A stretch of 64,000 nt of DNA from Morinoia aosen (taxonomy: Eukaryota > Arthropoda > Malacostraca > Amphipoda > Talitridae), in assembly GCA_030386875.1 (NCBI GenBank), contig CM059577.1, positions 20,781,038-20,845,037 of the forward strand, read 5' to 3'. The position numbers and the translations under genes were made by a program. The notes under the pieces are model-generated. The model did not search any database and was not told where the DNA came from. It saw only the letters and a list, made by a program, of their open reading frames with translations. The stretch's first letter is position 1. Each line of letters begins with the position of its first letter. Below are positions 1,831 through 59,051 of the stretch, piece after piece.

Positions 1831-1917
1831 ATAGTGGACCTATCTTTTTCGCCACTCGAATATTTTAAGTGTTATTGCCTCAAATCGCAAGCATAAATTT
1901 AACATGCCTCGGACCAG

Positions 1918-2146
1918 GTTCTCCGGTGCTGACATCAACATCGTGGTGCGCGACGCCCTGATGCAACCTGTGCGCAAGGTGCAGACGGCGACTCACTTCA
2001 AGATGGTGTCGGGGCCGTCACGTGCCGACCCGAACGTCATATGCAACGACCTCCTCACCCCCTGCTCGCCGGGGGAGAGAGGTGCCATGGAGATGGGCTG
2101 GGAACAGGTACCTGGCGATAAGCTCCTCGAGCCCGTCGTTTCCATG
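1918..2146 (+). CDS. Vps4: Vps4 exon (AAA C-lid and Vps4 C-terminal domain)
   Basis: Acceptor CAG at 1915-1917; the first base completes the split Gly codon and the exon ends at ATG|GTGAGT, phase 0. It encodes [20 protein letters not shown], the segment after sensor 2, followed by ATHFK and SGPSRADP. Then comes the Vps4 signature [21 protein letters not shown]. The LLTPCSPG to EPVVSM stretch is the beta domain and start of the C-terminal helix specific to VPS4, where LIP5/Vta1 binds in yeast and human. Local GC is much higher than in the flanking introns, as expected for an exon. Confidence 0.96.
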
Positions 2147-2728
2147 GTGAGTATTCTGGAGGTCTTTGCGCGTTGACTTAAATTGGTGGGTTCGTCTTTG
2201 TAGCGCGGTGATGAGAAGGTGGCGGTCTTGTTGGGCGTGTATGTAGGTGAAACAAGGATGAGGGTCTCTGATGTTGTGTGACTTCCTGTGATGTTTTTCC
2301 TCGATTACTTCATGCTTCTAAGGAGAATTATTACACAAAAAGTGGCCTGAGGAGCTAGGGAAATCACTGCCACAAAGTAACACGTGCTTTTTTATATGTA
2401 ATTAAATAGGTGGGAATTTTTTTCATAACATAAATAAACATAAGCACAGTGCACAGCAATGATAGTGAGAGACCTGGGACGAATAGTACGGCCGGGTTGA
2501 ACCTGCCTACTTCGCTTTGCAGAGTTGACTTATCGAAGCAAAGAGACACGAAGCAAGCTCGCTTGCAAAAATGCAGAGTATGAGAATAAAAACTGAATTA
2601 AGAGGCGGTCCGCTGACAATGGTTTTTTATGGATATTGGCAGTAACCTTTAGCGTAGAACGGGAAAGTCTCAAAAATGGCTGTCTTGGTCTATTTTTAGT
2701 CGCATGTGTGACTGACCTTCTTTATATA

Positions 2729-23896: not shown

Positions 23897-24002
23897 CTCA
23901 TTGGTGACCATCGACAGCTGCCTACTGAGCTCGTTGAGGATGTCCCTGAAAGTGGGTCGATCAGCAGCGTTGTAGCGCCAGCACTCCTTCATTAGCACGT
24001 AG
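23897..24002 (-). CDS. Fgfr: Fgfr exon 13: kinase C-lobe end
   Basis: Encodes YVLMKECWRYNAADRPTFRD, then ILNELSRQLSMVTNE (residues 823-857). CW...RPTF is the conserved motif of tyrosine-kinase subdomain XI. The acceptor is CTACAG and the donor GAG|GTGAGT. The first base completes Thr822. Confidence 0.95.
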
Positions 24003-24723
24003 CTGTAGGTCACGACAACCAACTTATAAATGTGTACAGGCCATTATTGCAGTTATTTAAATTTGGGTACAGTCGCTTAGGTTGATTTGTAGAATATACG
24101 TGTTTCATGTGCCGGACATTCCTTTACTTCTTTACGTTCATTTATCAGCGACCTCTCAATTTAGGATAACGTATCTTTTGAAGAGGCTTGAAATTGATTT
24201 AATATAAAAAAGCGTTATTCACATCTTTCAACCACACACTGATTTTGTATGAGTACGATGATATACAACACTCGTATCATTCGTATCTGTTCAATCCTCA
24301 GCAACTCGTGTTCTCGCAGAAGTAGAAATTCTGTTAAATAGTATTTTCAGTCCATGAAATATAAAATCTGTGAAAACGGAAATATTCGACGTGTGATAAC
24401 ACGCAACCCTAAAAATACAAGATGCTACAATTGCAGGCATGAGATACCCATTATGAGATTAAACAATCTGCGGGTTTCTTCCAAAACAAAAGAACTATAA
24501 AACCAGTATGTCTTCTGAACAGATATTAGCGACTGATCGTGAGCAGAAAGAAAGGGAGAATAAAGCACATGAGCAAGAGCGATAACAGTCGCAATTATAT
24601 GCAGAGTAACATTCACATGTACCCGCGTTATTTTCTTTATCTAAAATTTAGTTTTCACTTAAAACCATTGGCATTGCTTAACAGTCAAAAGTTTGAGTAC
24701 TATAATCTTCATCAAAGACTTAC

Positions 24724-24864
24724 GTCTCAGTGGTGCAGTAGTGGGGCTTGAGCATGCGGTGCCCTTCCCTGAGAAGCTTGAAGAGGTTCTCGACGGAGGG
24801 GACAGAGGGGTAAGGAGTGCCACCAAGAGACATAATCTCCCACAGCAAGATGCCAAACGCCCAC
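24724..24864 (-). CDS. Fgfr: Fgfr exon 12: kinase subdomains IX-X
   Basis: Read through TACTGCAG|G TGG, it encodes [20 protein letters not shown] and then [20 protein letters not shown] (residues 776-821). This is the F-G helix region typical of FGFR. The donor is GAC|GTAAGT, phase 2. The longest open frame over this exon is a different one, so the exon is easy to miss. Confidence 0.94.
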
Positions 24865-25330
24865 CTGCAGTAAAACAGCAAATCATCACGGGGGAAAACT
24901 ATTCAAGTAAAATTACCGTTCGCTTCAAGGCTATTAACAAACGAGGCTCAAAAATTTAATGCGCTAGGAGGTAAATACAGGCATGCGAATGCATTAGCAA
25001 GTTTTCAATTTGAACTCACCTTATTACTCCAATTGTAACTTCAAATGAGAAATAACTTCATAAGTTTCACCATTCAATAAAAATGAAACACATGCGTTCC
25101 AGCAGAAACCAATCCTGCATTACAGCTCGCGTGCTTCTTACCTAAAACATTTCTTCAGGTAGGCTCTTTACCCAGTAATTAAATTTCATTAAGTCCTCTT
25201 CACACTACTTCCACAAATCATTCACAAGACACTTCATGCCACACACGTACCAAATCCTACACCTCTCTGTACTCACTTAAAGCATTTCAAATACCTCTGT
25301 TACGCACAACATTCATTTGCCGGAACTTAC

Positions 25331-25524
25331 ACGTCACTCATGGAGGTGTAAACGCGCTTGAAGAGAGCTTCAGGTGCCATCCATTTGACAGGAAGGCGAC
25401 CTTCCGAAGTTTTGCGGTAGTAGTCCTGAGAGTGGATATCCCGCGCCAGTCCGAAGTCGGCAATCTTGAGCACGCGATCTTTACAAACGAGTACGTTGCG
25501 AGCTGCCAGGTCCCGATGCACGCA
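25331..25524 (-). CDS. Fgfr: Fgfr exon 11: catalytic and activation loops
   Basis: Encodes [24 protein letters not shown], the tandem-tyrosine activation loop [15 protein letters not shown] and [17 protein letters not shown] (residues 711-775). The acceptor CCAAAG|TGC is purine-rich just before the AG but fits the family junction. The donor is GT|GTAAGT inside the Val codon, as in vertebrate FGFRs. Confidence 0.96.
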
Positions 25525-26041
25525 CTTTGGGTGGATGGAAGCAAATTCAACAAGGACAGAAGAAGTACATTCGTGATGAACTACTACTTTCATCAAAACG
25601 AACGCAATGACGCCTGAATTTACTCCGTTATAGCTTTTAATTGACTTTAAACAATCTACTCAAATGTTCGAGTAACACTAATTTCATTTCCAAAGCTGGA
25701 TGAAATGAACCATAAATTTCAATGAGCATTATTAAAAGAACGGAAATAACAAAAGATATCACAGAAGATATCTACTTTCTTCCTGCGTTGCAACACTTGC
25801 AAGATAAATCCGACTAGAGATACATTAAGCATTGGAGCATGCTCATCAGAAGCGGAGATACCTCAGGGCTAATCCCAATGAGCGTATATCCGTGACTGGT
25901 ACAATAGCCCCCCAAACTCAGTTACTGATCAACATACTTTAACCCCTCATGTAGGATTTTTCTTATCTTCGGAGAACAGTGGGGAGCTTTACGACATTAC
26001 AGTAATAGCAACATACCGAGTCGAACGATGAAACGTGAACG

Positions 26042-26132
26042 AAAATTTATCTCCTGAACTAAAATTCATCTCCTGAACTAAAATTTATCTCCTGAACTAA
26101 AATTTATCTCAACGAAAATTTATCTCCTGAAC
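26042..26132. repeat. 19-bp tandem array in Fgfr intron
   Basis: Nearly five units of AAAATTTATCTCCTGAACT. Three are adjacent and nearly identical, one is shortened to 16 bases (ending CAACG), and one more follows. Confidence 0.9.
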
Positions 26133-26428
26133 AAAATTACAAATCTGTACTCAGAGATGACAAGATTTAAGAATGAAAGCACTCAAGACTTGAGAGCAGG
26201 AAGCCAGCAGGAGCATTGAAAAAGTGCTAGACTAGGGACAGTGCAAAAGCAAGCAGTTATTCCAGTGAACTGACTTATTTTCGCGCCGTCTCATGAAAGA
26301 ATAATGTACCGAGTATTTTATTATTATTTCAAAAAATACATTCATAATAAATTGAAATACAAAAATTGGCTACTTTCTCCGAGCTCACACACGATTACTC
26401 ATGTAATCTTATTTGGAGTAAAACCAGG

Positions 26429-26620
26429 TTAAGGCTTTGACTGCAATGAGAGCCATCGGTGGTACACGGAGATTTTCAAAATGCTGCTGATCGGCTAGTA
26501 GACACAAACTTAAATTTCATAAGTACTTTATTAAAACTAGATGATGGCACGACCCTGCCAAAGTTTACTATTTTAAACATTGCTTACTATAATTGTCTAA
26601 ATTCGAGTTGAATATTAAAC
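26429..26620. mobile_element. piggyBac-like MITE, family 3, 3'-degraded copy
   Basis: Begins TTAAGGCTTTGACTGCAATG and aligns with the reverse complement of the element at 51533-51760 through shared blocks such as TACACGGAG, ATGCTGCTGA, CACAAACT, TTCATAA and GGCACGA. The far end loses similarity after TTAAACTTCAG, so the second TTAA end is not intact. Confidence 0.7.
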
Positions 26621-26738
26621 TTCAGTTTACCGGTTTTGAATCGTGTTTGAAAAACTTATCCTATGACACTTTCGAAACGAATTCCAGCAATGTTACCGAG
26701 TAAAATTACAAAAAAATTAAAAACATAAAAATCAATAC

Positions 26739-27040
26739 CTTTTTGGCAGCGAGGTAATCCATGCCTCGAGCTACTTGGTAAGCGAATCCAAGGAGGTCAC
26801 GCTGGGTCAGAGAGCTTTGAGGGTCCTGGTCGATGGCACACTCGTAGCCGAGAGCGTGAGGCTGGCTGGTGCGGAGGTAGTCTCGCAGGTTGCCGAAGTG
26901 GGCGTACTCTACGACAACGAAGAGAGGCCCCTCTTGAGTGCAGCACCCGATCAGATTGATGATATTCTGGTGGGTTCCGATGATCTTCATCATTTCCATC
27001 TCCGACACCAAGTCCATCAGTTCAGAGTCTGTGTGGCCCT
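26739..27040 (-). CDS. Fgfr: Fgfr exon 10: kinase N-lobe, hinge and helices D-E
   Basis: Residues 610-710. It begins by completing Glu610 and reads [38 protein letters not shown] and [20 protein letters not shown]. It ends [14 protein letters not shown]. Glu623 is the helix-C glutamate that pairs with Lys606, and Val653 is the gatekeeper. The acceptor is CGAGCAG and the donor AAG|GTATTG. Confidence 0.96.
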
Positions 27041-27578
27041 CTGCTCGTGCACGAATGGTAAATTATCATCATCCAAAATAAAATTGAACGATAGACAATG
27101 TGCATATTTCTTTGTATGATTTTATATTTTCTCAAACAGTAGCCACTGAATTTATTATTGCTAAAACCTAACCTGTGGATTGTGAGGAGTAAACGTGTTT
27201 GGTGCACTTCAAAGAATGTTAGAAACAAGATTTCTTGAGAGAAAATGATGTACAAGGAACAGGTGGTACAAACTTCGTATATTTTCTCAAGGGTGCGTTT
27301 ACTCATTTATGTATCACCAAAAAGTGGATACTAAACTGATAAAAAATACGCAAAAACCTCGATAGTATGGAGACCTACAGAGCTTCAAAAAAATACATTT
27401 GTTAACGTCCACAGGGCAACAACGGTCAGCTGATTGACGCTCTGCTTCCAAGTAATTTTTTCCCTTCTTTTCACGGTGTCGCACAGATATAGAAGAAAAA
27501 TGAACCCAATATACCACTCTTAGCTAACAATAATAAGCAAAACAATTTTATTGCTGTACGCCCTAAACACAAGCGTAC
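27041..27578 (-). other. Fgfr intron 9
   Basis: About 540 bp between the two N-lobe exons. It is AT-rich, with no repeats or coding signals that I can identify. Confidence 0.8.
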
Positions 27579-27855
27579 CTTTAAGCATCTTGACAGCGAC
27601 GGTGTTGCTCATCTTGTGGTCAGCGGAGAAAAGCTCAGCCTTGTGTACTTTGCCAAAAGCGCCTTCCCCGAGGGCGTCACCCAGCAGAAGTCTGTCTCTG
27701 GGCAGCTCCCAGGCGCTATCGAGAGGCAGCTCATACTCGGACATGCTGCTGGGCGGCGAGCCCAGGCAGCGGCGGGAGGGACAGCGCTCTATTTTGATGT
27801 TGGGCACCAGCAGCGGTTCCTCCGAGTGCTCGTTCTCGTGGCGTTCGATGATCAC
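27579..27855 (-). CDS. Fgfr: Fgfr exon 9: juxtamembrane segment and kinase P-loop
   Basis: Residues 518-609. It begins [20 protein letters not shown], passes through [20 protein letters not shown] (start of the kinase) and the glycine loop LGEGAFGKV, and ends VAVKMLK with the ATP-binding Lys606. [11 protein letters not shown] is the FGFR hallmark preceding the kinase. Donor AAAG|GTACGC, phase 1. Confidence 0.96.
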
Positions 27856-28642: not shown

Positions 28643-28842
28643 CTTTTTGATATGTTGACTGAAGACCTCAGACGAGCGCTCGAGCACGAGCATCCTGCGC
28701 TTCTCCTCACGCCACTTCTTGCAGCAGCAGACGGAGAGGAGGCAACCGCCTACCACCAGCGCTCCCATCACCAGCACCACGATCAGCAGCGTCATGCTGG
28801 CCACCGTGTGCACCGGTGGCGGCTCCAACATTCTCGGCTCTT
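28643..28842 (-). CDS. Fgfr: Fgfr exon 8: transmembrane helix
   Basis: Residues 451-517. It encodes a short extracellular stalk (EEPRMLEPPPVHTVAS), a hydrophobic helix from TLLIVVLVMGALVVGGCLL to Cys491, then the stop-transfer KKWREEKRRM and the juxtamembrane start ending SQHIKK. CCC at 489-491 just inside the membrane could be palmitoylated (inference). The exon starts phase 1 and ends phase 0. Confidence 0.95.
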
Positions 28843-29085
28843 CTGCATTATTCAATTTAGTCATTACTAAAAAAATCTGAGTTCGCTAAATGTTTTCAAG
28901 GTCTTTAACAAATGGCAGTGAACTGAGAAAAAATGGTTCTTAATAAAATAATGAACATTATACTTTGACAAAATAAAAAGCCAACTTGACCTTCAGCTCG
29001 ACACTACGCATTTCCTACTGCTACAATTGGCACTAATTCCTGAAGATACAATTGTAGTGATTAATTTATTATAAGAAATATAAGA

Positions 29086-29411
29086 AATTTTTAGCCTCCC
29101 TTTACCACAACAAAGATGTTCAAAGAGAGGAAGGATGAAGGTATCTTTTATTATGGAGGGAACGCGGAATTTACGCACAAGGTGCATAAAAACAGCAAGC
29201 TAAGAAAAAAGTTTACGAAACAAGATAAAAGTTACCGAAAAACGTAGTAGGTGCTGAAAAACAGGAGAGCAGTGAACCTAAAGAAAGATGGTCCGTAACA
29301 TAACAAAAAACCTATTCTATTTTAACAAAAAGGAGGTCTAGCTAACCATTAACTCGCGATTTCACATAATCCTTCTGGGAACAATACAATTGTAGTATGC
29401 CTCTGAGAGGA
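29086..29411 (-). mobile_element. SINE-like element, copy 5
   Basis: On the plus strand it runs from TTTTAGCCTCCCTTTACCAC to CCCTCTGAGAGG, with the landmarks AGAGAGGAAGGATGAAGG, AACAGGAGAGCAGTGAACC and AAAACCTATTCTATTTTAAC. The sense strand is minus, the same as the Fgfr transcript. The element's 5' end has lost part of the GCGCTAATTCCC region. Confidence 0.75.
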
Positions 29412-30459: not shown

Positions 30460-33194
30460 CTGCATCGCGCACAGACTTCCGTCATCCATCAAAAAAACGA
30501 AATCAAAAAAAGCTAGTTCTACGTAATTCGATGGAGCAAAGTTGCCTAAAAGCTTGGTGATTTCGGTACAAACAAATTGAATGATATGATTTAAAGAATG
30601 ATAATAGTCAAATCTCAAACGTCAACAGATGAATTAAATTCAAGCATTTCTTCATATTTCAAATTGAGTTGACATCAATCGCCCACTCGTGTGTATGATT
30701 CTAATTTAAATGAATCTGCCACAAAAACTACGAATTTGAGTTTTCATCAATGTTGAAATAATTCAAGCAGAAATAATAACTACATTTTATGATATTTTAC
30801 TGTTAATTATCATAATTATTAAAATAATTTATTACATGCCACTTCTAAAATTGTCTAAATGTCCGTTGAGAAACAACAAGAAAATATAATTTTACAAATT
30901 TGAAGAAGACAATGTTAGGAGACAATGTTAAGTTAGAAAAAACACTGTACACTACTTTTCATGCACTAATGTGATTAGATCATATAAAAGTTCAGGAATA
31001 TCATAAGAATATGAAGGTTTGAGGTATGCAAGGTATGTACATTTGGGCCTAGTGCCAACGAGCATGCAAACTGAGCTGCTAAATTGAACCACAGACTGGA
31101 ACAAAAACAGAATTTAGGCTCAATAACAATGACCTCAGATCGGCGTTTCTGGCCAAAATTCTTAAACTGATCATTTTTCGGGGGAAACTTACAAAAACTG
31201 AAAATTCTGGCCAGAAAAAACAGCCAATCTGGCAACATTGAGCGATACACGCACTATAATACACCGAGAGCTACGCTAAGATATTCAGTCACAACAGTAG
31301 CGACTGAAATGCATTACGAAGATGTTACGTAGACAAATACGACAAATAATCGCAAGCAAATTAGAACTCATAAACAAATACTACGTTTGCCTCAAAATTT
31401 CTACTGAGTAAATACATAAAATCAAGATATCTTCGATTTGCCCGTCAATTTGCCCGTTATGAACAAGCCAAGTGCACCACTGAAACAACAAGGGGAGCTC
31501 CAAGGATATATGCCAGTATTTTGCACAAGGCGCGCTATACCGCCCCACTATACCTGAGCAGCTGCACGAGGAAATCAGGCGCAATTACAAGACGTACAAA
31601 ATTGCCAGGTAAAGTACAGCAGCACGAGACGTGAGTGTCAGTGGCGCTACAAGAAGTGCGCGAGTGGTGCTGTCGTAGCACCAGCGCTCTGCATGCCGAT
31701 GTGCTCAGTACTCATTTTGTCTGAGGAAACATGTCATTGCTCGAAGTCCATGAAAGTGTTCCTTTACCCCAAAATGACTTTCTCATCTACCTAAAGCTCA
31801 ATTATTATCATAAAACTAACCTGACATTTTACCATATTCCAGGTCACGAAGTAACAACACTACATTAGCTCAGCTACTTTGCGAGTCCTTGATTTACTTT
31901 TATTCATCAATGAAAATTCTTCGTATCCGACGTCCATGTTATTGCTAAACCACCTCATCGATCGTCATCGAAAATTTGACGATCTGGATACCTAAGAACT
32001 CGATATATTCTGTTCATGGGTCTCTGACCTCATAAATAAAGACGAAAATAAATCAAGAAGCTGTGAAAGCATGTGAGAATGATGATCACAAAAAGCTGCG
32101 GAATTCACTAGTAAGGAAGTTCAGAAATTTTCATTCGTACGATTTTCTCCTCGTACGCTACCCACCGCTCCAGCTCAATTGAGGTGATGTTCCTACCATA
32201 ACGAGTTCGTATTCCTACTTCCCGCCCCTCCCTCGCCTGTTTCCCTCGCTCGACGCCGCCACATCCCACTTCACAGGTCAGTACTTCCCTCACCGGGCCC
32301 ACGGACACCTCACTGCATTCCACAGGTCACAAGTTCGTCCTATTGGAACTTCATCAACAAAGCTAAGTGACTATGAGTCAGATAACACAATTTTGAAAGC
32401 CAAAAGAAGCAGACTCGACTAGATTAGTGCAGTTGTACAGGAGATGCGAATGTTCATTGAAACGATTAATATGCTCTTCTGAAAGCATGAATTAAAAGAA
32501 CATGGTTAAACAATTCAACACCTTGAAACTCTAAAACTTGGTACTGAATAACGTAGTTTTAACACTTTCACGACATAGATGCACCTATCAGCAATGCAAA
32601 CGTACAACATAAATAATTCAAATTTTAGCTGATTAGTACGCGTGAAGAGCTATAAGCCCTTTCAACAAGACACCAGATGCTAGTAACATACAGCACACTA
32701 AATACGGACTTGCTCTGAATTCTCACGGCATTAACATTAAGGATTGTGAAGGATTGTTCAATTTGTCATATAGCACAGTTCATTCAGTGTCAATGTACCT
32801 AGATGGTCAAGACAAAGATAACACTCAAAACATGGGATGTCAAAATATTTTATAATGTGTTTGCGGATTTGACCGTCTTAAAAACAAACACGAGCAGTCA
32901 TCAGCAATAATAAACGTGCTATTATGTGCAACAGCAAACACAAGCCATCTGTGGCGTTCTCATCATACTGAAAGTCTCAAAGGAAGAAACTAAAATTTTT
33001 ATAACTAGGTACTGAAGTACAAAAAACAAGAGTTTAGATAACATACATCACTCAAATAAAATTTTGTGTCAGTCGTTATATTATTTTCAGCACTTTTGAT
33101 AGTGTCTCACACATCAGATGAAACTTTGGCGAACTACAATGAGGAACGACAGGGGTTAGGAAGTGGACGCATAGCATTTGCGCAACGAGCGCAC
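30460..33194 (-). other. Fgfr intron between exon 6b and exon 7
   Basis: 2.7 kb with no recognised transposon. A GC-rich island at about 32140-32330 stands out from the AT-rich surroundings but has no Ig or kinase signature. Confidence 0.8.
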
Positions 33195-33406
33195 CTGGCA
33201 ACTGAGAGGGTCTGTATAGAGGCCTTTGCTGAGCACCATGGCACCTTCTGAGGAACTGTAAGTGTGCAGCAGGTCTCGACACCACATCAGGTACGGAGTA
33301 GGAGTGTTCTCCAGGTACAAGGCCACTCGCAGCTCTACAGTATCTCCTTCCCTCACCGTCAGGTTCTTCAGCGACTCCGTGAAGATGGGCCGAGTGGGTG
33401 CGTGGG
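33195..33406 (-). CDS. Fgfr: Fgfr exon 6b: alternative first half of Ig-III
   Basis: Acceptor TTTGTTTAG, donor CAG|GTGCGC. It begins phase 1 (completing Ala340) and ends phase 0, exactly like exon 6a. It encodes HAPTRPIFTESLKNLTVREG, DTVELRVALYLENTPTPYL, then MWCRDLL and ends YTDPLSCQ. TRPI-(F/L)-...-NLTV-.-.-G aligns without gaps to exon 6a, so the two are duplicates. The canonical Ig cysteine is Val here, and new cysteines occur just after the core Trp and near the exon end. Including both 6a and 6b shifts the frame, so they should be mutually exclusive. Expression is not shown by sequence alone. Confidence 0.8.
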
Positions 33407-35585
33407 CTAAACAAATGGTTATACGATGCACGTGAGCAGACGACTACATGAATGTGGATGACGCTGCCTTTACAGAGCACGAGAGCTAAAGTTTCTCAAG
33501 AGTACGGCGTAACTGAAAATTAACAGCTAAACAAAAAAGTCTGGGAAATTTACTCACGAACATCCAGTCTTTTCGACAGGAAATCTGAGCCGGTGGAGTA
33601 AGCATTAGAACTGCTATACGCATACGTGTACAAGCTTAATTGCTTCCTTACTTGAGCCATCTACTCCAATACACACGCGTCTCTGAATTACACGTGAGTG
33701 TTGACACTTGGAACCATCACAGAAAAACATTGTGAAGTCTTCCAAGCGAAATGTCGCAGGACCAGAAATTTATTATTTTCGAAATGAAATTAGAGATCAT
33801 AACATAGTTGAGTTCTACATCCTGTTACATTGAGAAGTTTAGCTGAAGAGATAAAACACAAGCAGCCGAGGCTCCGCCTACACAGCATTGTCGCGAGGGA
33901 AACCTAGAATGGAGGTAGGAATTGTGCAATCTTTACTGGCAAACGCGCCCTCTGGATGGGGTACGGACGGCCTGCAGCGAGCGGCATGACAAGAACGGAA
34001 CACCAGCACACAAACCGCCGTAAAAAAAAGATATTTACACACAGCGGCTTCTTCTAACAGAAGAGAAACCGCAAAATGGGAAGATGTCGACACTTCCTGC
34101 ATTACATTCCCTGCAAAAAAAACTACTGGTGTCTACTAATGTTACCTTGAAAACCAAGTTCCAATTAGGCAAAATGAAAGAAATATGGCACAATGAAAAA
34201 AAATTAAGCATCATGAAATCCTTTCAAAACGTTGCAGGAAAATGAACAGGCGTATACTGCGCTATCAGCTAAGCTTAAGCTTCACTATACACTCTACAGC
34301 AAAACAATGCAAGGCTAAAAAGCTGCTAGTGCATAACATGAACAAACCCTAATATGCTACTACCAACAAGAGCATAACAACGCCACGTTGTGAGGTGGCT
34401 GAACACGCAAGCTCTCAAATGACCCACATAAAGGAATTGAACAATGGGAAGAGAATAAGACATGAAAAATGAACAACAACACAATGGATTTTGCGGCCTC
34501 ACTATACCTGCCTATTCCCCTTCCTTAGCAAATACACGAGCAGAAGTGTAATAGTACCCACTTGAAAAAATAAATTCTACCTGCCACTAAATTTTTAGAT
34601 TCGTCTGAAGTAAAAGAAACATAACAGTAATTGTTTCTCTACAATATTCATCTGCAAGGCCGTTAGAAAACGAAGCCAGCTCTAAATGATAACCTCACAA
34701 GCTAGAGACAATACTCAAAAATGTAACGAAAATTAAGACCCGTGTCCAGAAAATAATGTCTTCCGGTTTAAACCACTCGGAAAAGAAGGCTACAAAATTA
34801 AAACTTTACACAAAACCAAGTTCCGTATTGTGGTGGCACGAGAGATATCTTCATCCAAGACTGAAATATGCAAGGGAATACTAATCGAATAGCAAGGATG
34901 AAGTGAATGTAAAGAATTAACATTAAGGATAATGGCCACACGAGACTAGATGGTAAACCTTGCAGGAGTGCAACTTTTTTTTGAAGACGTGATATTAACA
35001 TATGATTAAATATGAGCAAATACTGCAAAAAACAAGACATGTAAAATTTTCAACGTTCATTTTTTCTACACCTGACTTGAAAAATGAACTTAAAATAGGA
35101 TAAATTTATCCCATAGTTAAAAGCACCAGCACCCATTATAAATGAAATTATAAGTAGAAATCTACAATTGCAGAATGAAAATTATTGATAGAAATAACCA
35201 AACAGTAGAGACGATTAAAAATAGATATTTTCCCGGAAGGAAAGGCATAAATAAAAAAGGAATACATCCCAGTCAGAATAGCATCAATAGAAATAGAAAT
35301 TATCCCACAATGATGACCAATAATAGTAATAGAGATGGTCCCATAGTGAGTATCGTTAAAAGCGCCAGTACCGAACCCGTGTGCCAAAAAGAGAGTTGGT
35401 GAGAGAAACCAAATTAAAAAGCAAAAATGCGCCTCATAAGCACAAGCCCAGAAATCAGATACCGTAACAAAGAAGGCCTTGGAGGACCCATAATTCCGAA
35501 CATAGACACGTGCAGTTCAACTATAGGAACGGACGCGATAGCAACAAGTGGATACATGAACAGGAAGGGCGGGAGAAAGAACCAC
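33407..35585 (-). other. Intron between mutually exclusive Fgfr exons 6a and 6b
   Basis: 2.2 kb separating the alternative Ig-III exons; regulatory elements that force their exclusive choice would be expected here. I see a loose direct repeat, CCCATAGTTAAAAGC (about 35110) and CGTTAAAAGCGCCAG (about 35353), and no transposon. No paired docking sequence could be recognised by eye. Confidence 0.6.
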
Positions 35586-35773
35586 CTTGATAACATAGAT
35601 TCTCATAACAGCTCCGTCAGCATCGAAGATAATATCTTTCATGGGGTGCTTCAACCAGGAGATGAAGGGCGGCTGATCGCTGATGACGGAGCACTCGAAT
35701 GTGGCGGGGTGACCGGACACCACCGTCAGGTTGGCCAGGGGGCGCTTCAGGATGGGGCGGCTAGCAAAGCGTT
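35586..35773 (-). CDS. Fgfr: Fgfr exon 6a: first half of Ig-III
   Basis: Residues 340-402. It reads ERFASRPILKRPLANLTVVS, GHPATFECSVISDQPPFISW, LKHPMKDIIF, and ends MRIYVIK. It has the canonical Cys367, which pairs with Cys431 of exon 7, the core Trp379 and WLKH, as in vertebrate exon IIIa. The acceptor TTTTGAAG is weak in its last bases. The donor AAG|GTGGTT is also suboptimal, which fits regulated use. Confidence 0.92.
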
Positions 35774-36971
35774 CTTCAAAACCAACCAAACACTTGGTCA
35801 TGGCATGATTAGGCCATCAGTGATACACGCACCCAACTTGCTAACCAACTCTCAAACTTCACAGGAATACCACATTACTTAAGTTACTCCTCAAAACATT
35901 AGTATTAAGCTCCCTCGATGAACTTACAAAATAGCCTGTTTCTCTTGAGTTCTGCTCTCTCGTAGCAAACAATATTCATTTTTCTTCACGTGAGATATAA
36001 TTGACGTACCTAGTCTTTCAATTAATATCTTCGAATAAAAGATCTAAAAAATTTGAACAATATTTATAATACGTGAGAGAAACACAGTTTGATGAGATGT
36101 AAGAATGTCCCATAAGTGGATTTAGGGTTAGTGTTTGGTTATTTGTGATCCATGGACATCACGTTGAAAAAAGCAATAATAAACTCAAAAATAAAGATAT
36201 GGTATGGAAAGTTCTCAGATGATGTACCGACGTATGTCTAGAAGAATGAATGGATCGAGAGAAAGAGGCACTAGAGTGATTCGAGTATATCAACTGGCAC
36301 GAAGTGGGTTCTATAAGCTGGCACGAATGAGGCTATGAGTTGATTTATCATTGCGCAACCGTGAGATGACTTATTGGTGTCGTTTGATGAGAAAAACAAA
36401 GATTACATCAGGTAAAAGCTGATGGGCCAAACTACTCACGTTTCATTGGAAGATATAGTCATCTTAAAAAGCCCGGTTTAAAGCCGATACACTTGAATGG
36501 CCTGATACATGAAAAGAGATATGAAGTAGGCACGAATGCTTATTTGTAATTTTTTCAGTTTTCTAATCTCACTATACTCAAAAATGCATCGGGGCTCTGT
36601 GACCCTCAGCACTGAAGGAGTAACGCGAGGAGCCTCTTATTTTAACGAAACCTTGCAAAAAAAAAAAACTACTTCACTGATTTTATGATACTTCGAATCA
36701 CAACCTTCAATTTTTCTCATATTCTCATGGAACAAAATGAAACGTTAGAACTGGTATGGAAAACGAGGAGAAATTTCAACAAACTCAGTCCCAAGAGGTC
36801 CTAAAGCACATCCGTTGATTCCCGCACGCTATTTCCACCAGAAATATCGATAGATGCTTCTTCTGATTAACATATAACACGAAATTATAAAAGTTTCTAA
36901 AAACCACTCAGGATTGGGAAAAAACACAAAGGATGACAGATTTTGATGTGTTTGAAGCGGAGGAGTCTTAC
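35774..36971 (-). other. Fgfr intron 5
   Basis: 1.2-kb AT-rich intron with no recognised repeat family or coding signal. Confidence 0.8.
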
Positions 36972-37128
36972 CTATGACATCTACACTGAAGGTGTGGTTG
37001 ATGGACCCGTACTTGTTGCTCACAATGCAGGTGTAGTTTGCAGAGTCATGCGGTACCAAGTTCTCCATCTTCATCCAGTTTTTGCGGATCCGGAACTCGC
37101 CTATTTTGCGAGTAGGAATCTCCCCATT
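36972..37128 (-). CDS. Fgfr: Fgfr exon 5: second half of Ig-II
   Basis: Residues 288-339. It reads NGEIPTRKIGEFRIRKNWMK, MENLVPHDSANYTCIVSNKY, GSINHTFSVDVI. The block NYTC-V-N-YGSINHT-DV is diagnostic of FGFR Ig-II, the main ligand- and heparin-contact domain. Acceptor TTCATTCAG, donor ATAG|GTAAGA, phase 1. Confidence 0.96.
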
Positions 37129-37666: not shown

Positions 37667-37828
37667 CTTCTTCCATTCGGTCTTGAGATCCTCTCCTGAC
37701 GCAGGGCAGCGCAGGTCAGCCACGTTACCGGCAGGTTTGACCAATATGTGCGGCAATTCCTTTGTGAACATCGGTGCTCTTGTGTCCACTGCTTCTGCAG
37801 CTGCCTCCTCCGACAGTTTATTGCGAGC
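37667..37828 (-). CDS. Fgfr: Fgfr exon 4: Ig-I/Ig-II linker and first half of Ig-II
   Basis: Residues 234-287. It starts with a mildly acidic linker, ARNKLSEEAAAEAVDTRAP, the position of the vertebrate acid box. The Ig-II strands follow: FTKELPHILVKPAGNVADLR, CPASGEDLKTEWKK, with Cys274 and Trp285. The basic heparin-binding run of vertebrate FGFRs (KMEKRLHAV) is represented here by FTKELPHIL, with far fewer positive charges. Confidence 0.95.
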
Positions 37829-38581: not shown

Positions 38582-39014
38582 TTATACGGCAGGAATTTGA
38601 GCCTGTGGTGGGCGTGCAGTTCGGTGATCTCGGTGCCGTTGAGGTACCAGCTCACCCTGACGGGCTCGTGCCCCTGCAAGCCCTGCAGCCGACACTTGAG
38701 GCGCAGCCCCGCGCCCTCCCGCACCTCCTTGACGGGCGGCGGTGCGTCGCGCTCAACGCTCGCTCTGTACTGGTCGTAGTCCACGTCGCCCTCGTACTCG
38801 AAGTCATCGAGGCTCGGTGCCCCCCTGTCTTCGTGGGGGAGCGATAGATCGTGCAGTAGAGGAGGGGTGCTGGGAGTTGGGGACGGGTCAGCAGTAGGCG
38901 GCGGGGCCGGCGGAAGAGGTCGGATGGTGTACACTGTAGAGGGCTGGATGCCTGGGGTGATGGGGGATGGTTGTGGTTTGTGGCTGGCTTCTGTGTTGTA
39001 CTCGTAGTCTGCAT
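38582..39014 (-). CDS. Fgfr: Fgfr exon 2: acidic/proline-rich N-terminus and first half of Ig-I
   Basis: Residues 39-183. After the signal peptide come DADYEYNTEAS, a proline-rich stretch (about 52-90, with LPPAPPPTADPSPTPSTPP), an acidic tyrosine-rich segment SLDDFEYEGDVDYDQY (106-121), and the Ig-I strands VREGAGLRLKCRLQG and VRVSWYLNGTEI with Cys146 and Trp161. The N-terminal extension before Ig-I, nearly 100 residues, is longer than in vertebrate FGFRs, and its acidic part precedes Ig-I instead of following it. The exon is very GC-rich for this locus. The acceptor completes Asp39 and the donor is TATAA|GTGAGT. Confidence 0.92.
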
Positions 39015-39769: not shown

Positions 39770-39836
<67 letters not shown>

Positions 39837-40183
39837 AGAAAGACTTAACCACCCTTTCCCACGACAAAGATGTTCCAAGAGAGGAAGGATGAAGGCACCA
39901 TTTAGTATGGAGTTGAGGGAATGCGGAATCTATGCACAATGTGCATAGAAACAGTAAGGTAAGAAAGAAGTTCATGAAACAAGAAAAAGTTGAAGAAGAA
40001 GGAAGTAGGTGCTGAAAAACAGGACAGCAGTGAACCGAAAAAAAGATGGTTCGTAACAAAACAAAAACTTATTCTATTCTAACAAAAAGAAAGCCCACCT
40101 AACCTTAAGCTCGGGCCCTCACATAGTCCCCCTGGGAGCGCTAATTCCCATAGATACAATAGTTGTATCCCCCTGAGAGGAAA
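39752..40183 (-). mobile_element. SINE-like element, copy 6, with (AAT)n tail
   Basis: Full-length copy. On the plus strand it opens with a TTA-triplet run (39752-39833), which is the element's 3' tail in the minus sense. The body follows, ending GATACAATAGTTGTATCCCC and CTGAGAGG. A 10-bp repeat, ACATCAAACT, flanks it at 39742-39751 and 40184-40193. The apparent poly-Asn frame on the minus strand is this tail. Confidence 0.8.
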
Positions 40184-41909
40184 ACATCAAACTATAAGAA
40201 AGCACATATGAAAGAGGCAACGTTAAGCTTCGGTAGGAGACAAAGCATGAAAAACAGCTACGCCAGTAGCCTTCCAAGGAGCATGTTTTACAACCAAACT
40301 TCCTAGTAAATTACCAAAACCTTGTAAATAGAGAATACTCGAGCGGATGACGTTTATTTGAAAAATTCTTGCCCAACAGTGTTCGTTCAAGAGAGAGTTC
40401 ACTTACTCGCATTTATGGAGCTGCAATCAGCTTATGTCTGTGTATATACAGTGTGTAGTTGTAATCTATGCATACATAAGTATACGATGGTTGCAGTAAC
40501 ACACTCTCCATAGCTGCAACCAGCGTATTCGTACCCACACTCGCGAGCGTATGCGTAGGTGACATGAGAGCCTCCATTGATCACTAAGGTGGACCATCAC
40601 TACGTAAGCAGCGTTGAGGTTCCCACCAGGGCTCGACGACGCCATCAATCCTTAGATGGTATCATCATCTAGGATTTTATTGTGTTAGTCTGGGTGGGGA
40701 AGGTGGAGAAGTCCAATCTCTTTCATTTCCAAGCCTTTTTTTCTGACACTAATTCTTTTCCAATTCAAGCACACACATTTGTGGCATTGTGAACTCCACG
40801 ACTGAACAACTCTATCATTTATGCGTTAGTGAAATGAAGAATAGAATGTATAAAGGCGAAAAATATAAATAATGTCCTTCAGTAAAGAAAAGAAAGTCGG
40901 CACGTTCGCTTCTCATGCTTACGACTTGGCAAGGCACAGTAATGAACAAATTGCATATATACGCGCAAAACGAGATGTCTAGATTCGAGGAAAAGAAATG
41001 AGGCTAATAAAAAACAGAACCAACACTGCTGACAATGAAAGTAATCACGACAATGATCATTGTGGACACTGTGAGGTGACCAGCAGAGAGCACGATAAAT
41101 AGTCGACAAGACGCCGTTTTTCAAGGGCCAATCAGATAACATTTGTGCAGGGCAGCGGGCGACGCTAATCTACTTCCCACACAATGGCTCCTCGGGTATC
41201 TTGCAGGGCCACCTTGAGCGAGACATAAATAAAAGAGCGTCCAGGCTGCAGTAACGTGTGTCCCGTAGGAGAAAGATCCGCTGGATGCGCTACACACTGA
41301 AATGTCGGACGATGTTCCAAGCAACGAGATAATGACAAGTGGGCGATGACTTCTAAAGAAAATACTAAGAAATAATGAGTACCATGTAAGGCTACACTAT
41401 AATACGTAACATTAGAATAAAAAATGTGCAAGTTAGACAAATGAGAGCAATAAATAACACAAAACTAGGGTCAGGGCGCAGCTAACGAAAGGAGGGAGGA
41501 TCAAGGCAGTTGGTCTCTTAGACAACTCGGGAGCCAAGGAACAGCCGTAGTGCTGAACGCGTTTCACCTGCGGTTTTTCATCCATAGCATTATACTAACT
41601 TCATTTCCACGTTATAAACTGTTCTCTGTAACAGCACCGCAAAAAAACTATCACGCTCAATGAAACATGAATTACTCGCCCGAGCAATGAAAATGTTACC
41701 GCTAGATAATAAAACCAACTCCCTAAGAGCAGCACCGGCTAACACGAAGCATATTCTACGCGTGCGCTAATGATTTTCTGCCAGTGGGCCACGGCTGAGG
41801 TGCATCCGTGAAAGTTACGAGAAAATATTACCCCAAAAAATTGGTGAATATTTAATCCAGAATATTTTTCCCGATTTTCACAACCCACAAACTAATGTTT
41901 TTTAAAGCT

Positions 41910-52042: not shown

Positions 52043-53008
52043 TGCAATGCCTAGTCGCACTACAGCAATGCGCACTTGCAGCAACACCTAGTCGCACTGC
52101 AGCAATGCGCACTTGCAGCAACACCTAGTCGCACTGCAGCAATGCGCACTTGCAGCAACACCTAGTCGCACTGCAGCAATGCGCACTTGCAGCAACACCT
52201 AGTCGCACTGCAGCAATGCGCACTTGCAGCAACACCTAGTCGCACTGCAGCAATGCGCACTTGCAGCAACACCTAGTCGCACTGCAGCAATGCGCACTTG
52301 CAGCAACATCTAGTCGCACTGCAGCAATGCGCACTTGCAGCAACACCTAGTCGCACTGCAGCAATGCGCACTTGCAGCAACACCTAGTCGCACTGCAGCA
52401 ATGCGCACTTGCAGCAACACCTAGTCGCACTGCAGCAATGCGCACTTGCAGCAACACCTAGTCGCACTGCAGCAATGCGCACTTGCAGCAACACCTAGTC
52501 GCACTGCAGCAATGCGCACTTGCAGCAACACCTAGTCGCACTGCAGCAATGCGCACTTGCAGCAACACCTAGTCGCACTTGCAGCAATGCGCACTTGCAG
52601 CAACACCTAGTCGCACTGCAGCAATGCGCACTTGCAGCAACACCTAGTCGCACTGCAGCAATGCGCACTTGCAGCAACATCTAGTCGCACTGCAGCAATG
52701 CGCACTTGCAGCAACACCTAGTCGCACTGCAGCAATGCGCACTTGCAGCAACACCTAGTCGCACTGCAGCAATGCGCACTTGCAGCAACACCTAGTCGCA
52801 CTGCAGCAATGCGCACTTGCAGCAACACCTAGTCGCACTGCAGCAATGCGCACTTGCAGCAACACCTAGTCGCACTGCAGCAATGCGCACTTGCAGCAAC
52901 ACCTAGTCGCACTGCAGCAATGCGCACTTGCAGCAACACCTAGTCGCACTGCAGCAATGCGCACTTGCAGCAACACCTAGTCGCACTTGCAGCAATGCGC
53001 ACTTGCAC
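52043..53008. repeat. 37-bp minisatellite, about 26 units
   Basis: Near-identical 37-bp units made of two related half-units, CTAGTCGCACTGCAGCAA and TGCGCACTTGCAGCAACAC. Every unit carries a PstI site (CTGCAG), except the first and two units with an extra T. Variant units (ACATC instead of ACACC at 52308 and 52679; extra T near 52580 and 52988) recur about ten to eleven units apart, showing block duplication. Frames over it are open only because the unit lacks stops. Confidence 0.95.
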
Positions 53009-53633
53009 CAATGCTTGCCCAGCCTGAGTCGATCCACACCAGGAGCTTCCTCTACATGGACAGCTGCAAGCCCAATAATTAAGGGTATCGTAGAGCCTTC
53101 CAAGTCTAACGCAAACCGACCAAAAAGTAGTCATCCCAAACACTGCAGAGAAAAGCTTAAACGCAGAGCCACTACAGAGCGGTCTGCTGAAGAGATAAGC
53201 TGCTGCAGAGCGTGACGTGGCCTGCCTGCTTCAGAAAATAGTCTGCAGCTGATCATTGTTAGAATAATAAGACAAGAATAAACGGAAGATAAGTCATTGC
53301 AATAAAATGACAAGTTTCTACCTATGTTAAACGAGTTTCTACCCATGTTCAGTGAAGAACCACGTCAATTTTTACAGCATTAAAACAACAGAAGTACTAT
53401 ATCCTCAGAACAGCGGGGAACTTCAAGAGCAGCACAGAGTCTCACTCACAACAATGATGCGCTAGCGTAAAATTAAAAGCACTGAGTAAATGTGTTTGAC
53501 GTTGCTAGCAAAATAAGCTGTAAATTAGGCTGATGTCAGGCGGCACGGGACGAGGACGGCACCACAAGGGCGGGCTGGCGGCGGCTTGGCAGCGAGCCTC
53601 GTGCGCCGCAGGACGTGGACAGATGCCCACACA

Positions 53634-55488: not shown

Positions 55489-55849
55489 GATTAGATTAGA
55501 TTATTATTTAGTTTAAGCCTCCCTATCCTCAACAAATGAGATCCAAAGAGAGGAAAGAAGAAGGCACCATTTAGTATGGAGTTAAGGGAACGTGGAATCT
55601 ATGCAGAAAGGGCACAGAAACAGTAAGATGAGAAAGAAGTTCATGAAACAAGATCAAAGTTGAAGAAGAAAGTAGTAGGTGCTGAAAAACAGGACAGCAG
55701 TGAACCGAAAAAAGATGGTCCGTAACAAAATAAAAACCTATTCTATTTCAACAAATATAAAGCCTACCTAACCTTCAGCTCAGGCCCTTACATAGTCCCC
55801 CTGGGAGCGCTAATTCCCATAGATACATTAGTTGTATCCCCCTGAGGGG
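55489..55849 (-). mobile_element. SINE-like element, copy 13, with 14-bp target duplication
   Basis: Full-length copy with a perfect 14-bp flanking repeat, CCTCGTCATTAAAA, at 55475-55488 and 55850-55863. The plus strand begins GATTAGATTAGATTATTATT (the tail in reverse) and ends CCCCCTGAGGGG. This is the clearest proof that the tail belongs to the mobile unit and that both ends are as defined here. Confidence 0.9.
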
Positions 55850-56378
55850 CCTCGTCATTAAAAAATAAATGCTCACCTCACACCGGTTAAGGTATTGAGG
55901 ATGACAAACTAATCAGTACTAATTATTCCAACCGATTAATTTTCTTCATATTCGCGGCATAGCCTAGAGAGGCAGACGCACCTTTCAATTTTAGAGCCAA
56001 CCTTTACGAGTGTACCACCACCAGCGATCATCAAAGCAACAAGGCGAACACGAAATTTGATCCAAGGAGTCACAAAACGACTAACCCTGGTGGTGTACGT
56101 CTTACCCCAACACCCGTCTGAGGCTCTTATATCACAGCACACAAAACTTCCATTCAAACAAAGTAGAGAAGGGAAGACGGACAAGCAGAGCAACGTACCC
56201 ACGCTCCCGCCTCGGTAAATACTCGAATGACTGGCAGCAACATGAGCTCCATAGGCAGTTCGTATAAAAAGGTTCAACAAACAGGTCAGTTTGTCCAATC
56301 AATCTGAGAATACGACCAAACATTTGTGCTGGGGAAAGAGAGAAGCAGTGCCCGAGATCTGCGCGGCATCATTGCTGA

Positions 56379-58640: not shown

Positions 58641-58707
<67 letters not shown>

Positions 58708-59051
58708 AGAAAGTTTTAGCCTCCCTTAACCACGACAAAGATGTTCCAAGAGAGGAAAAAGGAAGGCACCATTTAGTATGGAGTTGAGGGAACGCGGAAT
58801 CTATGCACAAGGTGCACAGAAACAGTAAGCTAGGAAAGAAGTTCATGAAACAAGAAAAAAGTTGAAGAAGAAAGTAGTAGGTGCTGAAAAACAGGACAGC
58901 AGTGAACCGAAAAAAGATGGTCCGTAACGAAACAAAAACCTATTTTATTACAACAAAAAAGAGGCCTACCTAACCTTCAGCTCGGGCCCTCACATGGTTC
59001 CCCTGGGAGCGCTAATTCCCATAGATACAATAGTTGTATCCCCCTGAGGGG
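58641..59051 (-). mobile_element. SINE-like element, copy 15, with (AAT)n tail and target duplication
   Basis: Best-preserved copy. Flanked by ATGATCAAGATTA at 58631-58643 and 59052-59064, 13 of 13. The triplet run at 58641-58705 is its 3' tail. The body ends GATACAATAGTTGTATCCCC then CTGAGGGG. Close to copy 6 in sequence, suggesting recent activity of the AAT-tailed form. Confidence 0.9.

Follow-up and report, generated by a model that had tools for sequence, protein, structure and literature searches.

Introduction

The closest described counterpart of the exon pair analyzed here is a mutually exclusive splicing event of Fgfr in insects (Burguera et al., 2017, PMC5703972), affecting the exon that encodes the first Ig-III half (IIIa). 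As described there, mutually exclusive exons at the IIIa place are followed by a single constitutive exon of the IIIb/IIIc type. The legend of Figure 7 of that paper covers ten species, including Apis, Tribolium and Drosophila, and names no crustacean. Among the work it cites is a study of Tribolium Fgfr that, by its title, deals with two isoforms of a single gene (Sharma et al., 2015).

Three other systems bear a more limited resemblance. Vertebrate FGFR1-3 also carry mutually exclusive half-domain exons of Ig-III (IIIb/IIIc), but there the second half is swapped instead of the first, and the two cases represent separate duplications, the vertebrate one being dated to the chordate lineage (PMC5703972). 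In Caenorhabditis elegans, egl-15 has an alternative extracellular exon (5A/5B) in an invertebrate FGFR, with differing functions of the two forms; the exon is described as lying between Ig-I and the acid box, where it forms an insert rather than an Ig-III half-domain (PMC11519726). Sea urchins and other ambulacrarians possess an extra alternative exon in the Ig-III region, but this exon is reported to be without sequence similarity to the adjacent ones (PMC5703972).

For crustaceans, we noticed no report of a IIIa exon pair in our literature searches. Splice isoforms FGFR1-A1 and FGFR1-A2 were described in a decapod in a paper whose main text does not use the word exon (PMC11024359), and these isoforms may or may not reflect a IIIa switch. 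A single FGFR was reported for Parhyale (PMC5111886). Here we describe an Fgfr gene, very probably from a crustacean, with two IIIa-type exons, 6a and 6b, in a stretch of 64 kb of genomic DNA (the window).

Results and discussion

Gene identity and exon layout

The minus strand of the window harbors an FGF receptor gene, as recognized from Ig and kinase exons by PDB, Pfam and tblastn comparisons. The exons relevant to this work are listed below, with / marking exon borders.

37667..37828, minus strand: FGFR exon 4, first half of Ig-II; enters in phase 0 and leaves in phase 0; placed by sequence and splice sites
36972..37128, minus strand: FGFR exon 5, second half of Ig-II; donor TAG/GTAAGA (..GTCATAG/gtaaga); leaves in phase 1
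35773-35586, minus strand: exon 6a, 188 nt; canonical IIIa exon, encoding the linker and the first Ig-III half; B-strand Cys present
33406-33195, minus strand: exon 6b, 212 nt; diverged second IIIa exon with Val at the B-strand Cys and two other Cys
30459-30315, minus strand: exon 7, the only exon for the second Ig-III half; F-strand Cys kept (YTCLAANS)
28643..28842, minus strand: FGFR transmembrane/juxtamembrane exon; hydrophobic stretch TLLIVVLVMGALVVGGCLL
23897..27855, minus strand: FGFR tyrosine kinase exons at about 27855-27580, 27032-26739, 25527-25330, 24863-24726 and 24001-23897, with approximate ends; found by tblastn with the human FGFR1 kinase

The encoded protein combines Ig domains, including an FGFR-type linker and Ig-III, with an FGFR-type kinase, and the transmembrane exon sits between the Ig and the kinase exons. 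When the kinase pieces from 27032 onward were joined, the top PDB match was FGFR1 (E 4e-96). Exons 6a and 7 together scored 51.9 bits (8.3e-14) against Pfam I-set, and their best PDB matches were human FGFR4 and FGFR3, with a many-domain titin chain in fourth place and FGFR2 next. Exon 7 by itself scored 32.2 bits with I-set. The vertebrate arrangement, with two alternative exons for the second half of Ig-III, was not seen: exon 7 stands alone, and a profile of exon 7 and human FGFR3/4 detected no further copy of it in the 8843 open reading frames (ORFs) described below, the next match being Ig-II exon 5 (E 0.68).

A putative exon for the second half of Ig-I is present at 38406-38155 on the minus strand. 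It encodes DAGVYSGRW, with Gly at the expected F-strand Cys and a Cys 13 residues further on.

Splice sites and reading frame

Both 6a (..ttttgaag/AACGC...ATCAAG/gtggtt) and 6b (..ttgtttag/CCCACG...TGCCAG/gtgcgc) are preceded by AG and followed by GT. They enter in phase 1, leave in phase 0 and continue in the frame of exon 7. The initial annotation had proposed this pair from the sequence, and its coordinates, phases and RPI(L/F)...NLTV..G motifs were reproduced when we re-cut and translated the exons. Conceptual joins 5+6a+7 and 5+6b+7 are both open. The initial annotation had also claimed that using both exons would shift the frame; indeed, the 6a+6b join runs into a stop at codon 13 of 6b, and a transcript skipping both exons also meets stops. 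A useful double inclusion of 6a and 6b is thus ruled out by the reading frame alone.

The donors of 6a (AAG/GTGGTT) and 6b (CAG/GTGCGC) match the consensus at 5 and 6 of 9 positions, respectively, as compared with 7 of 9 for exons 4 and 5, 6 of 9 for exon 7 and 5 of 9 for the transmembrane exon. Because the donors of exon 7 and the transmembrane exon are weak as well, the weak donors of 6a and 6b are no signature of alternative use.

RNA pairing was considered as a means of mutual exclusion and rejected. The candidate, a 13-nt perfect complement in which an element near 36129-36148, itself also a partial match to the 6a acceptor, pairs with a site downstream of 6a, was a single occurrence against 0.57 expected and was reached in 22 of 60 shuffles, i.e., it is at chance level. 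No pairing element above chance was found in the introns by this complement search against shuffled sequences.

Evidence that 6b is a IIIa-type coding exon

To assign 6b independently of its own sequence, a hidden Markov model was built from 6a and the human FGFR3 and FGFR4 IIIa sequences, with 6b excluded, and applied to 8843 stop-to-stop ORFs of at least 20 residues, taken from the window with its surroundings (144 kb) and from the surroundings of a second gene copy (130 kb; see below). The two copies of 6a ranked on top (119 bits), followed by the two copies of 6b (16.9 and 16.7 bits; E 0.0028 and 0.0032); noise began at E 0.31 with the next match, and no further IIIa copy rose above it in these ORFs. 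Local alignment of 6a and 6b gave 12 identities in 38 residue pairs and a score of 48, against a mean of 21 (sd 4.2) for shuffled sequences, and none of 1000 shuffles reached it. The alignment stops two residues past the Trp.

The coding character of 6b was examined with a codon usage table that covered nine other exons of the gene (543 codons). In frame 0, the score per codon was 0.13 for 6b and 0.16 for 6a. Of the 16987 210-nt windows taken from outside the listed exons of the gene, 479 were open. Five of these scored at least as high as 6b: an overlapping group of four at 1898-2170 (plus strand) and a single window at 38605-38814 (minus strand). By visual inspection, both places lie in-frame inside ORFs that resemble exons, of the neighboring gene and of FGFR Ig-I, respectively. 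None of 20000 base shuffles of 6b reached its codon score, while 6.8% of them were open. The GC content at third codon positions was 0.67 in 6b and 0.62-0.83 in the nine other exons. A second reading frame of 6b is open too.

At the level of domain searches, 6b is less distinct. Alone, it scored 17.9 bits against Pfam I-set, under the curated cut-off of 23.7, and together with exon 7 it scored 47.2 bits. In the PDB, the top single-domain match of 6b+7 was FGFR4 Ig-III (47.2 bits), with two titin chains outranking FGFR4 by whole-sequence E-value. In the locus, a tandem of two exons homologous to IIIa precedes one IIIc-type exon. When searched alone, 6b matches titin and not FGFR in the PDB: its 12 matches at E up to 10 comprised titin, VEGFR2 and a few others, with no FGFR among them. 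Considering the phases, the rank in the 6b-free profile search and the coding-like codon statistics, 6b very probably represents a genuine alternative exon. The observation of a 6a/6b pair made in the initial annotation therefore stands (profile E 0.003, none of 1000 shuffles, codon score).

A second copy of the gene

A second FGFR gene copy was found on contig C12, within a colinear duplication of about 101 kb whose blocks share 90.6-99.8% identity. It extends from -3796 to 97642 in window numbering (contig C22) and corresponds to C12:18527644-18631704; the 101 kb is the extent so far, as the right end runs to the edge of the sequence compared. Either the segment was duplicated recently in the genome, or the second copy is an artefact of the assembly in the form of a misplaced haplotype.

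We compared 12 exons or exon pieces between the two copies. In C12, 6b (18567559-18567770) is open, has identical splice sites and differs at 1 of 212 nt, a change that replaces T by N (HTYS to HNYS) and creates the N-glycosylation motif N-Y-S. There are no differences in the 188 nt of 6a, exon 4 is identical, the kinase exons show five differences, all synonymous, and the other compared pieces are identical. With gaps uncounted, the introns flanking 6a differ by 0.3-0.4% and the intron between 6b and exon 7 by 1.1%. The copies are so similar that the comparison has no power to show or exclude constraint on 6b.

In the genome, a search with 6a+7 gave four matches at E up to 0.001, all in the two gene copies, and the best match to 6b outside these copies had E 0.3. 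Other kinase matches in the genome share at most 53% identity with the FGFR kinase pieces; a diverged FGFR paralogue may be present elsewhere in the genome. Outside this genome, a scan with a kinase exon revealed no FGFR locus in one viral-contig collection, and in a prokaryote collection it returned 40 loci with 33-58% identity, all 40 titled as bacteria and none an FGFR locus.

Predicted effect of 6b on the receptor

The linker Arg and the BC loop of FGFRs have roles in FGF contact. In an alignment with human FGFR4, the linker pattern (S/A)P.RPI and the core Trp are retained in 6b, which has a His at the position of the linker Arg (when the alignment is extended by one residue) and a BC loop extended by two residues. 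In total, 6b encodes 8 residues more than 6a, and its end of the half-domain is longer. The expectation in the initial annotation that a 6a/6b swap would change the Ig-II/Ig-III linker is consistent with these sequences; what it missed is that 6b has a Val in place of the B-strand Cys, as is apparent from its translation and the alignment to human FGFR4.

The canonical pair of Ig-III cysteines, at the positions that we take to be the B- and F-strand sites, is present in 6a+7 and incomplete in 6b+7. Exon 6b has two cysteines of its own, one after the Trp and one near the exon end. With the F-strand Cys of exon 7 this makes three in Ig-III, so at least one would be unpaired within the domain. 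For human FGFR2, mutations that models predict to disrupt the Ig-III disulfide are considered to lead to bonds between receptor molecules and to constitutive activity, as in Crouzon and related syndromes (PMC5051481), and cysteine mutants of FGFR3 are the subject of PMC6299260. The Val at the Cys position, the two other cysteines and the 8 extra residues suggest that a receptor containing 6b may differ in dimerisation or stability, instead of or besides ligand choice, and the loss of the cysteine is perhaps more than a swap of the ligand surface.

Proposed explanation and alternatives

We consider it likely that this Fgfr carries an old duplication of the IIIa exon and uses one exon per transcript, 6b in place of 6a, making it a crustacean instance of the insect-type event. 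Exon anatomy, phases, homology, coding character and the presence of the pair in both gene copies are seen in the sequence. One exon per transcript is expected because inclusion of both, or of neither, breaks the frame. Exon 6a would give an ordinary FGFR Ig-III, and splicing of 6b in its place, presumably regulated by tissue or stage, would give a receptor with the other linker, the extended BC loop and half-domain end, and no B-strand Cys. This choice could change the ligand response and/or dimerisation via the orphan cysteine.

That 6b is instead a relict duplicate, unspliced and decaying, is unlikely. Decay would suit the loss of the B-strand Cys, the end of the 6a/6b alignment shortly after the Trp, the nonsynonymous nature of the only change between the two copies of 6b, and the openness by chance of about 7% of its base shuffles. 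With 12 of 38 residues identical to 6a, the duplication seems to be ancient, but the frame, phases, splice sites and coding-like codon statistics have been retained, in the C12 copy as well. The stop that arises when 6b follows 6a is what a poison exon would provide, reducing the amount of receptor by terminating the frame of mRNAs that contain it along with 6a. Such an exon has no need for a frame that is open, coding-like, Ig-like and matched in phase to exons 5 and 7, and we regard this role as very improbable.

There is an equally small chance that 6b is the terminal exon of a truncated, secreted receptor. Read-through of its donor would add 12 residues, VRSLRKCYASTS, and a stop, and AATAAA occurs at 31904 and 30833 in the next intron; against this, 6b is followed by a GT donor whose phase suits exon 7, and the nearest AATAAA is about 1.3 kb away. 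We give hardly any credence to an origin of 6b from another I-set gene or from an Ig-II exon instead of IIIa. The titin matches of 6b alone would agree with such an origin, as would its alignment with Ig-II exon 4, which only 1 of 1000 shuffles equaled. However, the scores of 6b with human FGFR4 IIIa (52), 6a (48) and FGFR3 IIIa (44) exceed the 38 obtained with exon 4, for which a shorter piece of 40 residues was used. Moreover, 6b shares the linker motif with human FGFR, and enters in phase 1 as fits a IIIa exon, whereas exon 4 enters in phase 0.

Relation to the insect event

Under the preferred explanation, i.e., an old IIIa duplication with use of one exon per transcript, the locus resembles the insect event in its layout and differs in that the host is very probably a crustacean. 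The initial annotation had set a swap of the first half in an arthropod against the vertebrate swap of the second half. Its core, two IIIa-type exons that are frame-compatible only singly, is retained, but the contrast is not new, since the insect event is already in print (PMC5703972). What appears to be added here is a crustacean member of the IIIa pairs, the second exon of which is without the core cysteine.

A crustacean host would mean either that the label insect-specific covers too little or that the exon was duplicated on two occasions. Should 6b be spliced, the FGFR IIIa switch is no insect peculiarity, and its age could be dated by its occurrence in crustaceans, myriapods and chelicerates. 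The absent core cysteine provides a sharp prediction on receptor dimerisation. The locus would also add a lineage to the view of this stretch of Fgfr as a hotspot of repeatedly evolved alternative splicing, as put forward in PMC5703972. A bolder version, which we think quite unlikely, combines a IIIa duplication older than the insect-crustacean split with a Crouzon-like switch, in which 6b would leave the exon 7 Cys free and yield a covalently dimerising, partly ligand-independent FGFR in chosen cells.

Other features of the window and the genome

Adjacent to the FGFR gene, the plus strand of the window carries an AAA ATPase exon at 9-365 (Pfam AAA, 1.5e-05), which together with an ORF at 1904-2176 on the same strand we presume to be VPS4-like. 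A 37-bp minisatellite occupies 52050-53011 (25.9 copies, 99%); in the C12 copy it seems shorter, about 15 units judging from alignment rows. An interspersed repeat of about 300 bp occurs in several copies in the window and in C12, e.g., at 812-1127, 29051-29353, 39833-40196, 55489-55852 and 58662-58977.

The genome also contains 46 exon-level matches to glycosyl hydrolase family 7 (GH7). Cellulase-type pieces are densely clustered at G000:C24:59498855-59784340, where 36 of the 46 listed GH7 matches are located. Amphipods, an isopod, copepods and Daphnia are reported to possess GH7 in PMC5111886, which also discusses the loss of this family towards insects. The GH7 matches thereby make a crustacean host very likely, and since the mitochondrial COI resembles that of an amphipod, the animal is probably one. 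Contig G000:C28 (561 kb) has two equal-scoring COX1 copies 18,356 bases apart at its start, which suggests a concatemer of an 18.4 kb mitochondrial genome, and COX1 with invertebrate-type TGA codons is also found on C29, C26 and C22. On contig C27, 14 of 24 COX1 matches fall in G000:C27:55303150-71643313. Internal stops are absent from 11 of these 14, which suggests that bacterial DNA has been incorporated into the assembly.
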